Below, in pieces: positions 6,942-38,530 of a stretch of 48,888 nt of DNA. This DNA comes from Dehalococcoidia bacterium (GTDB taxonomy: Bacteria; Chloroflexota; Dehalococcoidia; DSTF01; WHTK01). The notes below the pieces were generated by a model, which was not told the origin of the DNA, ran no database searches, and saw only the letters and a program-made list of their open reading frames with translations. The DNA lies in the NCBI GenBank assembly GCA_035574915.1, contig DATLYJ010000071.1, positions 1 through 48,888 on the forward strand, given 5' to 3'. Each line of letters begins with the position of its first letter. Within the stretch, counting starts at the first letter, position 1. A program made the translations under genes and the position numbers.

Positions 6942-7131
6942 TTGGTCGAACGTAACGGAAGGGATGGGGTGGGTCAAACTTCATCACCGGCACCCTTCCC
7001 GCTGCCATCGCCAAGCGCACCGCGGACCATCCGGAGTGTCGAGGCTGGCGCGTCTTGCGTGCGCGGCCTTGCTTGCCCCGGAGGCGGCGGCGAATAATCT
7101 GGCCCAAGCGCGCCAACGAGGGAGGCAGGCT

Positions 7132-8391: not shown

Positions 8392-8420
8392 TTGACCGTG
8401 TTCCGGTAGCGCCATAGCAT
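8392..8420 (+). promoter_or_regulatory. Consensus-like promoter giving a leaderless MFS mRNA
   Basis: TTGACC (8392-8397), 17 bases, then TAGCAT (8415-8420). Only six bases separate the -10 from the ATG at 8427, so transcription should start at or next to the start codon. This is the clearest leaderless promoter in the window. Confidence 0.65.
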
Positions 8421-8426
8421 CGGGGC

Positions 8427-9710
8427 ATGGCTCAAGAAGTGGCGGTAAGAGACGCCGCCGCACTCCCACCGGATACCGCTGCTCAGGCAAAGTTCAAGAC
8501 CTTCCACTCCCTTCGTTACAGGGACTATCGCTTTCTCTGGCTCGGCCAGGTCGGCGCGGCAGCCTCGCTGTGGATGGAGCAGCTTGCGCGGCCGCTGCTC
8601 ATGCTCTCCTTGACGGACTCGGCCTTCCTCGTCGGCCTGGTCACCGCGACGCGCATGGTGCCGATGCTGCTGGTCGGCATCTGGGCTGGAGTGATCGCGG
8701 ACCGCGCTGACAAACGCCAGATCCTGCTCGTGACGAAGTCGGTCACGCTTCTGACGCACCTCACCACGGCCGCGGTCATCCTGACTGGCGTCATCGAGCC
8801 CTGGATGGTATTCGTGACGACCTTCATCGGCGGCTCCGCGATGGCCTTCGACCAACCGGCCCGCCAATCGCTGATACCGCGCCTCGTGCCGCGCGAGAGC
8901 ATCGCCAACGCTGTCGCCCTGAACTCGGCGGCGATGAACGTCATGCGCATCGCCGGCGCTTCCGCCGCCGGCCTGGTCCTGGCGGTATTCGACTACGGGG
9001 AACTCTATCTGCTCCAGTCGCTGATCTACGTCGGCGTCCTGGCTTCACTCTTCCAGATCAACTTCCGGCGCAGTGAGCAGGATTCGACGCGGAGGCAGCA
9101 GACTTCCGCCCTCGCGGACCTCCGCGAGGGCTTCGCCGCGGTCAGGCGTGACAGCGTCATCCTCTACGTCCTGGGTTTGAGCCTGATCCTCTTCGTGTGG
9201 GGCTTTCCGTATCAGACGGTGTTCGTGCCGCTGATCGCAAAACGCGCGCTGGAGCTCGGCGATGCCGGCGCAGGGCTGCTCGTCGCGCTGACCGGCGCCG
9301 GCGCCCTCCTCGGCTCGCTGACTATCGCCACCGCCGGCGACACGTTGGGGCGGCGCGGCCTCGTGATGCTCGGGCAGATCGCGCTCTTCAGCCTTGGCCT
9401 GCTGCTGTTCTCGCGGGCAGAGGTCCTACTGCTCGTGGTACCGGCCCTGCTCCTGACCGGGGCCATGCAGACGTCCTTCATGTCCCTGAACAATGCCTTC
9501 GTCCTCGGAAGGACGCCGCCCGAGCTGCAGGGCAGGATCATGAGCCTCTTCAGCCTGGACCGAGGGCTCATCCCGCTCGGCGCCACGGTTGGCGGGCTGC
9601 TGGCCGAGGCGCTCGGGCCGCAGGACGCGCTCACGATCATGGCCTCGATCTGCCTCGCCTGCACCCTCCTGGTAGCAGCCTTCGTGCCGACGATCCGCCG
9701 CATACACTAG
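8427..9710 (+). CDS. MFS transporter (EntS-like MFS_3 group)
   Basis: A 427-residue inner-membrane protein with about 12 hydrophobic segments. Its N-terminal RDYRFLWLGQVGAAASLWME and the loop motif GVIADRADKRQILL between helices 2 and 3 mark the major facilitator superfamily. The spacing and the FDQPARQSLIPRLVPRE segment resemble the EntS/MFS_3 exporters of siderophores or drugs. The second half repeats the pattern (GDTLGRRGLVMLGQ). The substrate is unknown. The gene starts at the ATG at 8427, six bases after a strong -10 box and without a Shine-Dalgarno site. No dedicated regulator is adjacent, and the next gene is convergent, 12 bases away. Confidence 0.9.
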   Translation: MAQEVAVRDAAALPPDTAAQAKFKTFHSLRYRDYRFLWLGQVGAAASLWMEQLARPLLMLSLTDSAFLVGLVTATRMVPMLLVGIWAGVIADRADKRQILLVTKSVTLLTHLTTAAVILTGVIEPWMVFVTTFIGGSAMAFDQPARQSLIPRLVPRESIANAVALNSAAMNVMRIAGASAAGLVLAVFDYGELYLLQSLIYVGVLASLFQINFRRSEQDSTRRQQTSALADLREGFAAVRRDSVILYVLGLSLILFVWGFPYQTVFVPLIAKRALELGDAGAGLLVALTGAGALLGSLTIATAGDTLGRRGLVMLGQIALFSLGLLLFSRAEVLLLVVPALLLTGAMQTSFMSLNNAFVLGRTPPELQGRIMSLFSLDRGLIPLGATVGGLLAEALGPQDALTIMASICLACTLLVAAFVPTIRRIH

Positions 9711-18823: not shown

Positions 18824-18829
18824 TAGAAT
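18824..18829 (+). promoter_or_regulatory. Extended -10 of the ferredoxin pair
   Basis: TAGAAT preceded by TGTGC (extended -10 style), ending 9 bases before the ATG at 18839. No Shine-Dalgarno and no good -35 are present. The mRNA would be leaderless or nearly so. Confidence 0.45.
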
Positions 18830-18838
18830 TCCGCTCGG

Positions 18839-19162
18839 ATGGCTACCATCACCGTCCTCCCCGACGGCATCGACTTCGAAGCAGAGCCAGGCGAAACGAT
18901 GATGGGCGCTGCCCTTGCGCGCGGCCTCTACTGGCCCACGACCTGCGGTGGCCAGGGCATCTGCACCACCTGCATGGCCGAGGTCGTCTCCGGCGAGGGA
19001 AACCTGCTCGAGATGGGTCGCAGCGAGCGCAAGACCCTGACCGCCGAGCGAGGCGAGGCGGTGCTCCGCCGTCCCGTGCGGCTCGCCTGCCAGGCAGTCG
19101 TCTTGGCCGGACCCATCTCCGTCATCAAGCCCGGCGTGCGGCCCGCGGAAAGCAGCTCATGA
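18839..19162 (+). CDS. 2Fe-2S ferredoxin (plant/chloroplast type)
   Basis: A 107-residue electron carrier with a beta-grasp fold. The cluster-binding motif CGGQGICTTC supplies three cysteines, and the fourth is in RLACQAVV about 40 residues later, the usual spacing for a [2Fe-2S] cluster. The N-terminus (ITVLPDGIDFEAEPGETMM) is typical of the family. The stop codon overlaps the ATG of the next ferredoxin (ATGA), so the two are translationally coupled. The start is ATG 18839, close behind a TGC-TAGAAT element. The partner enzyme is not evident: no oxygenase, hydroxylase or reductase lies next to it. Confidence 0.92.
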   Translation: MATITVLPDGIDFEAEPGETMMGAALARGLYWPTTCGGQGICTTCMAEVVSGEGNLLEMGRSERKTLTAERGEAVLRRPVRLACQAVVLAGPISVIKPGVRPAESSS

Positions 19163-19510: not shown

Positions 19511-19556
19511 AGTATCTGCTATGATTATCGAGGATTTGTATAGAGGGTATTTGTAG

Positions 19557-20480
19557 TTGGACCTCGGTCAGCTTGAGGCGTTCGTCCAGGTCGCGAACCA
19601 GAAGAGCTTCAGCCGCGCTGCTGAGGCGCTGTTCCTGACCCAACCTTCCGTCACTGCCCGCATCCAGGCCCTCGAGCGAGACCTCGGCGAGCGGCTGTTC
19701 GAGCGCTCGGGGCGCGGGGTACGCCTGACCGAGGTGGGCCAGTGCTTCCTCCCTCATGCGGAGCGCGTCCTTCAGGCGCTGCACGAGGGCCGGGACGCTA
19801 TTGACGCCCTGCGGAACCTCCAGTCAGGCTCTCTGATCCTGGCCTCTGCCACCACCGTGAGCACATACATCCTCCCCGGGGTGCTGAAGACGTTCCGCCA
19901 GCGGTTCCCACGGGTCGAGGTCTCCGTGCGCACCGGGCGTTCGGAGCAGGTGCTGCAAATGCTCCTCTCCGACGAGGCGCAGGTCGGCCTTGTGCGCGCC
20001 GTGTACCACCAGGACATCGAGACCAAAGGTCTCATCGAGGACGAGTTGATCCTGGTCGCGAACTCGTCCGATGAATTGGCCCAGTACGGCACGATCTCGG
20101 TCGAGCAGCTCGGCGACCACCCGTTCATCTTCTTCGACCACAACTCCAGCTACTACTCGCTGGCCCAGGGCCTCTTCCGGCAGCACGGCATCGTCCCCCG
20201 CATCCAGATGGAGCTCGACTCCATGGAGGCGACCAAGAAGATGGTGGAGGAGGGCCTCGGCGTTGCCCTGCTGCCACGCATGGCCGTCGAGCGCGAACTC
20301 CAGTCCGGCAGCCTCGTCGAGATCGAGCTTGCGGGCATGCGCACCCCGACGCGGCAGATCGCCCTCATCAGCCGACGCAGCCGCCCTCTCGGCCCCGTTG
20401 CCCACGCCTTCGTCGAGATCGTGCAGGAGATGTTCGTCTCCGGGCGTAGCCAGCCGGCAGCCGTCGGCGCATCGTCTTAG
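19557..20480 (+). CDS. LysR-family transcriptional regulator
   Basis: A 307-residue regulator. The N-terminal winged helix-turn-helix (residues 1-60: MDLGQLEAFVQVANQKSFSR, AAEALFLTQPSVTARIQ, ERSGRGVRLTEVG) is classic LysR. The remainder is a periplasmic-binding-like effector domain (GSLILASATTVSTYILPGVL; EEGLGVALLPRMAVERELQ). It starts at a TTG with GAGGG about 10 bases upstream. The effector is unknown; the sequence reads like the CbbR/CysB-like part of the family. It is on the same strand as the ferredoxins and preceded by an inverted repeat, so it may regulate them or itself. Its 3' end is convergent with the GerW-like gene, 30 bases away. Confidence 0.92.
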   Translation: MDLGQLEAFVQVANQKSFSRAAEALFLTQPSVTARIQALERDLGERLFERSGRGVRLTEVGQCFLPHAERVLQALHEGRDAIDALRNLQSGSLILASATTVSTYILPGVLKTFRQRFPRVEVSVRTGRSEQVLQMLLSDEAQVGLVRAVYHQDIETKGLIEDELILVANSSDELAQYGTISVEQLGDHPFIFFDHNSSYYSLAQGLFRQHGIVPRIQMELDSMEATKKMVEEGLGVALLPRMAVERELQSGSLVEIELAGMRTPTRQIALISRRSRPLGPVAHAFVEIVQEMFVSGRSQPAAVGASS

Positions 20481-23472: not shown

Positions 23473-23478
23473 ATTGTA
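23473..23478 (-). promoter_or_regulatory. -10 box of a leaderless gene
   Basis: TACAAT on the minus strand, preceded by CTCGC and followed by 6 bases and the ATG at 23466. No clear -35. Confidence 0.45.
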
Positions 23479-24095: not shown

Positions 24096-24346
24096 CGGCC
24101 CAGGCGCGGCGGGCCGCTGCACATTGGATCGTTTTCAGACTTCATCTTCCGGGAAGCCCTGAAACGCGGCAGGGGCTCCGAGGCGCGGGCGCGGTTGGAG
24201 CGTGGGAGACGAATGGAGGCGCGTCATGGATGCAGGATAGTGGAGCCGGGCGTGAGCCAGCAGCGCTTCGTTGGCCCCGCCCCCCGCTGGCGACCTGCGG
24301 GCGCCACACTCATGGTTACAGCGAAGCTCAAGGCATCGAAGGCTGC

Positions 24347-24352
24347 TATAGT
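24347..24352 (+). promoter_or_regulatory. Extended -10 of typA
   Basis: TATAGT preceded by CTGC (extended form TGCTATAGT). A start near 24359 would give a leader of about 60-90 bases containing the inverted repeat at 24381-24419. The rest of the 24096-24346 gap shows no gene. Confidence 0.4.
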
Positions 24353-27275: not shown

Positions 27276-27281
27276 ATTCTA
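27276..27281 (-). promoter_or_regulatory. -10 box of leaderless adenosine deaminase mRNA
   Basis: TAGAAT on the minus strand, preceded by GTGCG. Six bases lie between it and the GTG at 27269. The -35 is weak. Confidence 0.45.
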
Positions 27282-32176: not shown

Positions 32177-32184
32177 GCCGGTGC

Positions 32185-32190
32185 TAGAAT
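32185..32190 (+). promoter_or_regulatory. -10 box for the epoxide-hydrolase-like gene
   Basis: TAGAAT preceded by GTGC. It lies about 110 bases upstream of the ATG at 32299. The intervening leader shows no recognisable element. Confidence 0.4.
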
Positions 32191-33529: not shown

Positions 33530-33535
33530 TATCAT
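33530..33535 (+). promoter_or_regulatory. -10 box of the lipoprotein gene at 33545
   Basis: TATCAT preceded by GTTGC, 9 bases before the TTG at 33545, with no Shine-Dalgarno site. Confidence 0.4.
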
Positions 33536-34684: not shown

Positions 34685-34714
34685 TTGTCGGTGGTTTACC
34701 CGTTATGCTAGACT
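34685..34714 (+). promoter_or_regulatory. Promoter of the FtsB-like gene
   Basis: TTGTCG (34685-34690), 18 bases, then TAGACT (34709-34714) with an extended ATGC. A start near 34721 gives a leader of about 25 bases containing GAGGGCGG before the TTG at 34746. Confidence 0.55.
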
Positions 34715-36954: not shown

Positions 36955-36960
36955 ATTGTA
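36955..36960 (-). promoter_or_regulatory. -10 box of the DUF2207 gene
   Basis: TACAAT on the minus strand, 7 bases before the GTG at 36947. No Shine-Dalgarno site is present, so this is a leaderless-type start. Confidence 0.45.
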
Positions 36961-37146: not shown

Positions 37147-37152
37147 ATCCTA
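37147..37152 (-). promoter_or_regulatory. -10 box of tRNA-Arg
   Basis: TAGGAT with an extended TGC on the minus strand, 14 bases upstream of the tRNA 5' end. No clear -35 (GAACCC at 17 bases). Confidence 0.4.
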
Positions 37153-37293
37153 GCACGCGAAGCGGACCCGGGTTCGTGAGGAAGCGGGAGGGTTCAGGCC
37201 GACACTGAGGGACGGCCGCCGCTGACGCATTTGCTGCCCGAGGGTGCAGACCGGGGAATCGGCTCTTCGCCCGGGGCGACAGACTCCGGGGCG

Positions 37294-38450: not shown

Positions 38451-38479
38451 AAACAAAAAACACCCCGGGGCTTTCGGGG
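38451..38479 (-). terminator. Terminator-like hairpin upstream of tRNA-His
   Basis: On the minus strand CCCCG (38475-38479), AAAGCCC, CGGGG (38463-38467), then TG and a run of six T, then GTTT. It lies between the predicted promoter and the tRNA 5' end, so it would act on the tRNA transcript itself unless a second promoter exists. Confidence 0.55.
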
Positions 38480-38501
38480 AGCTTCCGATGCAGCCCAATG
38501 C

Positions 38502-38530
38502 ACGATAGCACGCGCCCCAGAGGCGGTCAA
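38502..38530 (-). promoter_or_regulatory. Promoter of tRNA-His
   Basis: TTGACC (38525-38530), 17 bases, then TATCGT (38502-38507) with extended TGC on the minus strand. The match to sigma70 consensus is good. Confidence 0.6.

Follow-up and report, generated by a model that had tools for sequence, protein, structure and literature searches.

The window, that is, the whole 48,888-nt stretch of DNA that was analysed, is an entire contig of a 3.25-Mb genome in 183 contigs (96% complete) with a GC content of 0.68. The IleRS of this genome has its nearest matches in Chloroflexota labelled Dehalococcoidia. A sequence-only reading had placed TTGACC-17-TAGCAT 6 nt ahead of the ATG of an MFS gene, TACAAT or TAGAAT 6–9 nt before the starts at 18839, 23466, 27269 and 36947 with no Shine-Dalgarno (SD) site, and TANNNT-like boxes ahead of 6941 and 33545. 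All these elements were located as described, and each of the seven starts carries a TANNNT 6–9 nt 5′ of the start codon, with no SD core at the normal spacing. The features are listed below, with the leaderless posterior of the mixture model described further down.

8392–8397 (+), TTGACC, −35-like hexamer 17 nt upstream of the −10 box of the MFS gene
8415–8420 (+), TAGCAT, −10 box, followed by CGGGGC and ATG 8427 (gap 6 nt; posterior 0.89–0.98)
8427–9710 (+), predicted leaderless MFS transporter gene (Pfam MFS_3 / MFS_1)
6949–6954 (−), TACGTT, −10 box 7 nt 5′ of ATG 6941, alpha/beta-hydrolase gene (posterior 0.90–0.92)
18824–18829 (+), TAGAAT (in TGC-TAGAAT), −10 box 9 nt 5′ of ATG 18839, 2Fe-2S ferredoxin-domain gene (posterior 1.0)
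23473–23478 (−), TACAAT, −10 box 6 nt 5′ of ATG 23466, gene without a Pfam match (posterior 1.0)
27276–27281 (−), TAGAAT, −10 box 6 nt 5′ of GTG 27269, adenosine-deaminase-family gene (posterior 1.0)
33530–33535 (+), TATCAT (in TGC-TATCAT), −10 box 9 nt 5′ of TTG 33545, small gene with a lipoprotein-like N terminus and no Pfam match (posterior 0.93–0.97)
36955–36960 (−), TACAAT, −10 box 7 nt 5′ of GTG 36947, DUF2207 membrane protein gene (posterior 1.0)

The posterior was thus at least 0.89 for all seven starts, and at the two stronger coding weights only one further gene of the window, at 2118 (−), exceeded 0.5 (0.64–0.65). TTGACC-17-TAGCAT is one of three promoter-like matches in the first 20 kb of the window.

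Raw motif counts in the window were at chance level, with 28 copies of GCTANNNT against 32.7 expected and 6 copies of TANNNT-N6-RTG against 6.0 expected, so the claim rests on the position of the box at real gene starts. This position was assayed in a 651-kb sample (~20% of the genome), in which 576 genes were called and their starts set by a home-made codon-usage caller blind to the upstream sequence. When 64 XYNNNZ patterns were scanned at 12 offsets, TANNNT at −12, which leaves a 6-nt gap to the start codon, ranked top of the 768 combinations (29 vs. 3.1 expected, z 13.6), and SD-like patterns ranked next. The motif search against shuffled controls, which the sequence-only reading had proposed as a check, likewise revealed enrichment at real starts: TANNNT occupied −15 to −12 at 64 of 521 starts vs. 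8.9 ± 3.0 in dinucleotide shuffles, or 12.3% of starts vs. 0.46% of internal in-frame ATG/GTG codons. Between −11 and −5 it was nearly absent, in keeping with the need for promoter and start site to stay clear of each other. Further, the adjacent box was confined almost entirely to the first genes of transcription units, occurring in 61 of 389 leading (promoter-proximal) genes vs. 3 of 132 operon-internal genes (p 1e-5).

A three-class EM mixture (leaderless, SD, none) was then trained on the 651-kb sample. It converged on TAnAAT with a peak at −12 whether the start search was wide or narrow, and assigned to the leaderless class 26–29% of leading genes, 3% of genes inside operons and 21–23% overall, fractions that are model-based; the model-free excess over shuffles was ~15% of leading genes. 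A posterior >0.9 was reached by 81 genes vs. 10.8 with shuffled upstreams, counted with the EM parameters fixed, as re-learning on shuffled upstreams fits noise. The large leaderless fraction that had been proposed therefore holds insofar as ~22% of genes belong to this class by the mixture model, but these are still a minority, and SD motifs are the main mode, with ~60% of leading genes SD-led in the model. The two modes were well separated, as an SD core was found in 5 of 86 leaderless calls vs. 245 of 392 other genes. The only 16S rRNA found, a single one, ends in CACCTCCTTTC with an intact anti-SD. Among the leaderless calls with boxes at −12, GTG was about as frequent as ATG (20 vs. 17). 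In a post hoc observation on boxes at −15, a G stood seven nt past the box in 11 of 15 cases and the start codon was ATG in 13 of 15, which suggests a 3-nt leader beginning with G at these genes.

The bases of the box follow the preference TAnRMT, with the fourth position purine-rich and the fifth A or C. To the 5′ side, leaderless genes carried C at −1 of the box in 26 of 72 cases (p 0.37), which is background, G at −2 in 34 of 72 (p 0.008), a modest enrichment, and T at −3 in 15 of 72, so that a TGn extension is weak and not a rule there. At tRNA genes, T, G and C at −3, −2 and −1 were found before 12, 18 and 16 of 23 boxes, respectively (p 8e-5, 1e-5 and 5e-4). A TTGACA-like −35 hexamer, sought at 16–18 bp (at least 4 of 6 matches), was enriched but weak in both sets, being present in 16 of 86 leaderless promoters vs. 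5.5% expected and at 6 of 23 tRNAs vs. 5.7% expected.

Which extension marks a promoter was evident from the placement of its copies. A same-strand start followed no more than 150 nt downstream for 43% of TGCTANNNT copies (vs. 14% in reverse orientation) and for 36% of TGNTANNNT copies, while the proportions were 14, 11 and 8% for CGCTA, GGCTA and AGCTA and 13% for bare TANNNT. TGCTANNNT sites were intergenic in 74% overall and in 10 of 10 in the window, where their number was mildly above chance (10 vs. 5.1 expected). A TG one base before the box is found at tRNA promoters and promoter-like sites, and the promoter-marking extension is TGn (TGn-TAnnnT), better than GCTANNNT. The notion of GCTANNNT as the −10 rule of the genome is thus retained for TANNNT as the −10 element, which 23 of 29 leading tRNAs share, but not for GC, which adds little, with C at background.

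Boxes also occur further upstream, at both tRNAs of the window and at other genes, as follows.

37147–37155 (−), TGCTAGGAT, extended −10 whose box lies at −20 relative to the 5′ end of tRNA-Arg
38502–38530 (−), TTGACC-17-TATCGT upstream of tRNA-His, with TGC preceding the box, which lies at −65
34706–34714 (+), TGCTAGACT, candidate extended −10 ~31 nt before TTG 34746 (modelled as SD-led)
32182–32190 (+), TGCTAGAAT, candidate extended −10 upstream of the SD-led start 32299
24344–24352 (+), TGCTATAGT, candidate extended −10 upstream of a TypA-like GTPase gene (start ~24448)
19517–19525 (+), TGCTATGAT, candidate extended −10 upstream of a LysR-like gene at 19557

Both tRNAs thus have TGCTANNNT upstream, as had been noted. 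TANNNT was present at −28 to −10 in 23 of the 29 leading tRNAs vs. 11.6% in shuffles. The assertion that other genes carry the box further upstream was borne out as well, since SD-led leading genes carry TANNNT mostly at about −25 to −50: it was enriched at −48 to −25 (62 vs. 18.5 expected) and missing at −18 to −7, the reverse of leaderless genes. Within 38451–38530 (−), a terminator-like hairpin, CCCCG-AAAGCCC-CGGGG followed by TGTTTTTT, lies between the TTGACC-17-TATCGT site and tRNA-His, so attenuator read-through or another promoter may operate there.

To evaluate conservation, relatives were sampled at 70–210 kb each. As the EM learns noise motifs on small relative samples and on Escherichia coli, a fixed TANNNT count was used for these. 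The TANNNT peak was found in the same family (16 vs. 4.0 expected), the same order (17 vs. 5.9) and the same class (27 vs. 9.5), while being doubtful or absent in other classes. No adjacent-box signal was obtained from the named Thermomicrobia pool (0 of 62) or the other Chloroflexota pool (4 of 131), and in mixed low-GC SAR202 loci the adjacent box was not above background; therefore, the trait is not phylum-wide. One sample from the same order (G002, family f2, 160 kb) had the adjacent box in only 4 of 81 leading genes and never at −12, which sets it apart from the other members of its order; leaderless use may have fallen in this family. In the same pipeline, Deinococcus deserti plasmid 1 gave 10 of 81 (12%; local background 1.7) and E. 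coli K-12 gave 2 of 95 (2%), below its background of 8.3. The 15.7% of leading genes in the window genome did not differ from the D. deserti plasmid (p 0.5).

A first ortholog comparison on the sampled loci yielded too few overlapping genes. An orotidine-5′-phosphate-decarboxylase-like gene was among the few cases of wide conservation, with an adjacent TANNNT in the genome's own sample (L041), in L165 of the same family and in L204 of the same class. For the adenosine deaminase of the window, relatives offered only distant homologs (28–35% identity), which were uninformative. Three apparently leaderless conserved genes, those for PurQ, an NTP-transferase and a NifU-like protein, were then traced in up to 28 relatives. 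TANNNT was present at −18 to −12 in 26 of 61 orthologs vs. 5.4 expected, and box and SD excluded each other: 26 orthologs had only the box, 23 only the SD, none both and 12 neither (p 2e-8, which is overstated because the relatives are not independent, although the orthologs agree in their pattern). The 23 SD-led orthologs carried TANNNT at −60 to −19 in 21 cases, vs. 5 of 26 of the others.

The distribution was then read by order-level family. For PurQ, the box stands at −12 or −13 in f1 and in most of f3, while f4 carries GGAGG and lacks an adjacent box. The NTP-transferase gene has the box in most of f3 and is mostly SD-led in f4. The NifU-like gene is boxed in f1 and almost throughout f3 and f4; in f2 its box is found near −30, and an SD-like site separates it from the start in L319, a weaker one in L320. 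Together with two PurQ loci (L280 and L284), these two have TANNNT at −28 to −33, and GAGG or GGAGG intervenes in three of the four; judged by this arrangement, they appear to have gone with a leader where other relatives have none. That genes of this Chloroflexota order switch clade-wise between leaderless and SD-led states, the same −10 box shifting by ~20–30 nt, as in these three genes, is a proposal to which we give even odds. If true, leader gain and loss would be a common evolutionary event in this order, traceable gene by gene.

Taken together, these data point to TANNNT as a sigma-70-type −10 box that serves ~22% of genes as a leaderless promoter and SD-led genes from further upstream, an explanation to which we assign a probability of about 0.93. 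Box position, base preferences, SD exclusion, the lack of the box inside operons, its identity with the tRNA box and its conservation in relatives are direct results. From these we infer that TANNNT (TAnRMT) would be the −10 box of the main sigma-70-type RNA polymerase, and that in ~22% of genes (~28% of those with their own promoter), where it ends 6–9 nt before the start codon, transcription would begin at the start codon or up to ~3 nt before it. Since the box adjoins the start codon, no room is left for a ribosome-binding leader, and the resulting mRNA would have neither leader nor SD. The ribosome would start on the 5′-terminal start codon, probably as a 70S or as a 30S preloaded with initiator tRNA, a translation route of leaderless mRNAs that is established in bacteria. 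At the other genes, the identical box further up, mostly at −25 to −50, would leave an SD-bearing leader.

That TANNNT lies near starts by chance, merely from the base composition of AT-richer intergenic DNA, would agree with the window-wide counts of GCTANNNT and TANNNT-N6-RTG. It is already refuted by the positional tests, in which the peak stood out against shuffles, neighbouring offsets, internal start codons and operon-internal genes, and both the tRNA set (23 of 29) and the box conserved in orthologs leave it a negligible probability. The AT-rich box might instead be a translation signal and no promoter, such as an unstructured entry site for the ribosome or bS1; it occupies the usual place of the SD, and AT-rich upstream stretches are known at SD-less genes in some phyla (PMC5397173). 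Such a role is very improbable, however, given that untranslated tRNA genes are preceded by the identical hexamer, which also stands 25–50 nt upstream at SD-led genes and is missing from operon-internal ones, and that its specific bases and fixed register are unlike general AT-richness.

A different reading accepts the promoters as real but lets translation begin further downstream, so that the chosen starts would be wrong and the leaders short. Start choice is indeed ambiguous in GC-rich genomes, the coding-only caller initially set the MFS start at 8574, and some boxes at −16 to −18 imply a leader of several nt. However, Pfam MFS_3 starts at residue 25 of the 8427 frame, and 8574 is therefore too far downstream. 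The peak falls exactly at −12 though start codons were chosen without using the box, several proteins, PurQ and the NTP-transferase among them, have N termini that are fixed across relatives with the box at −12 to −15, and SD cores are absent (5 of 86); together these make misplaced starts a very unlikely explanation.

With the sigma-70-type −10 box as the preferred reading, a Chloroflexota lineage would join the heavy users of leaderless mRNAs, with a frequency similar to that of the Deinococcus plasmid in the same test. In genomes of this kind, many starts will be wrongly placed by SD-seeking gene callers. Related families, in which both states occur with one box at two distances, form a natural series in which the gain and loss of leaders can be studied.

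The alphaproteobacterial (Caulobacter) −10 element is GCTANAWC, which GCTANNNT resembles, whereas here GC is no requirement and the sixth base is T. The sigma-70 extended −10 (TGn-TATAAT) has its counterpart in the TGn before the box at tRNA and other promoters here, but at leaderless genes TGn is weak. Leaderless use is cited in 21.6% of bacterial species in StartLink (PMC9581028). In the part of the literature that was covered, which gives no proof of absence, no paper was found that treats leaderless genes or the mapping of start sites in Dehalococcoidia or Chloroflexus. A close match is the TA-led genes, with TANNNT ~12 bp upstream, that are frequent in Actinobacteria and Deinococcus-Thermus (Zheng et al., 2011; PMC3160421). 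The present genes are similar in the distance of TANNNT, in weak middle positions at high GC, in lacking an SD and in coexisting with SD-led genes, and differ in lineage and in the share, ~22% here by a different method vs. an average of 4.7% reported for 4 of 12 Chloroflexi genomes. Changes of initiation mode between orthologs were already described in that study. In D. radiodurans, where about one third of genes are leaderless, mutation and reporter assays demonstrated that the ORF-adjacent TANNNT is the −10 region, with an optional −35 that works at 17 bp (Zhong et al.; PMC12340547); the TANNNT a few bp before the ORF is shared with the present genome, which belongs to another phylum and in which the −10 role of the box is predicted from sequence. 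Thus, the mechanism is known from the work of Zheng et al. (2011) and from Deinococcus, while the lineage, the predicted high fraction in a phylum listed at ~5% and the putative clade-wise switching between leaderless and SD-led genes are new.
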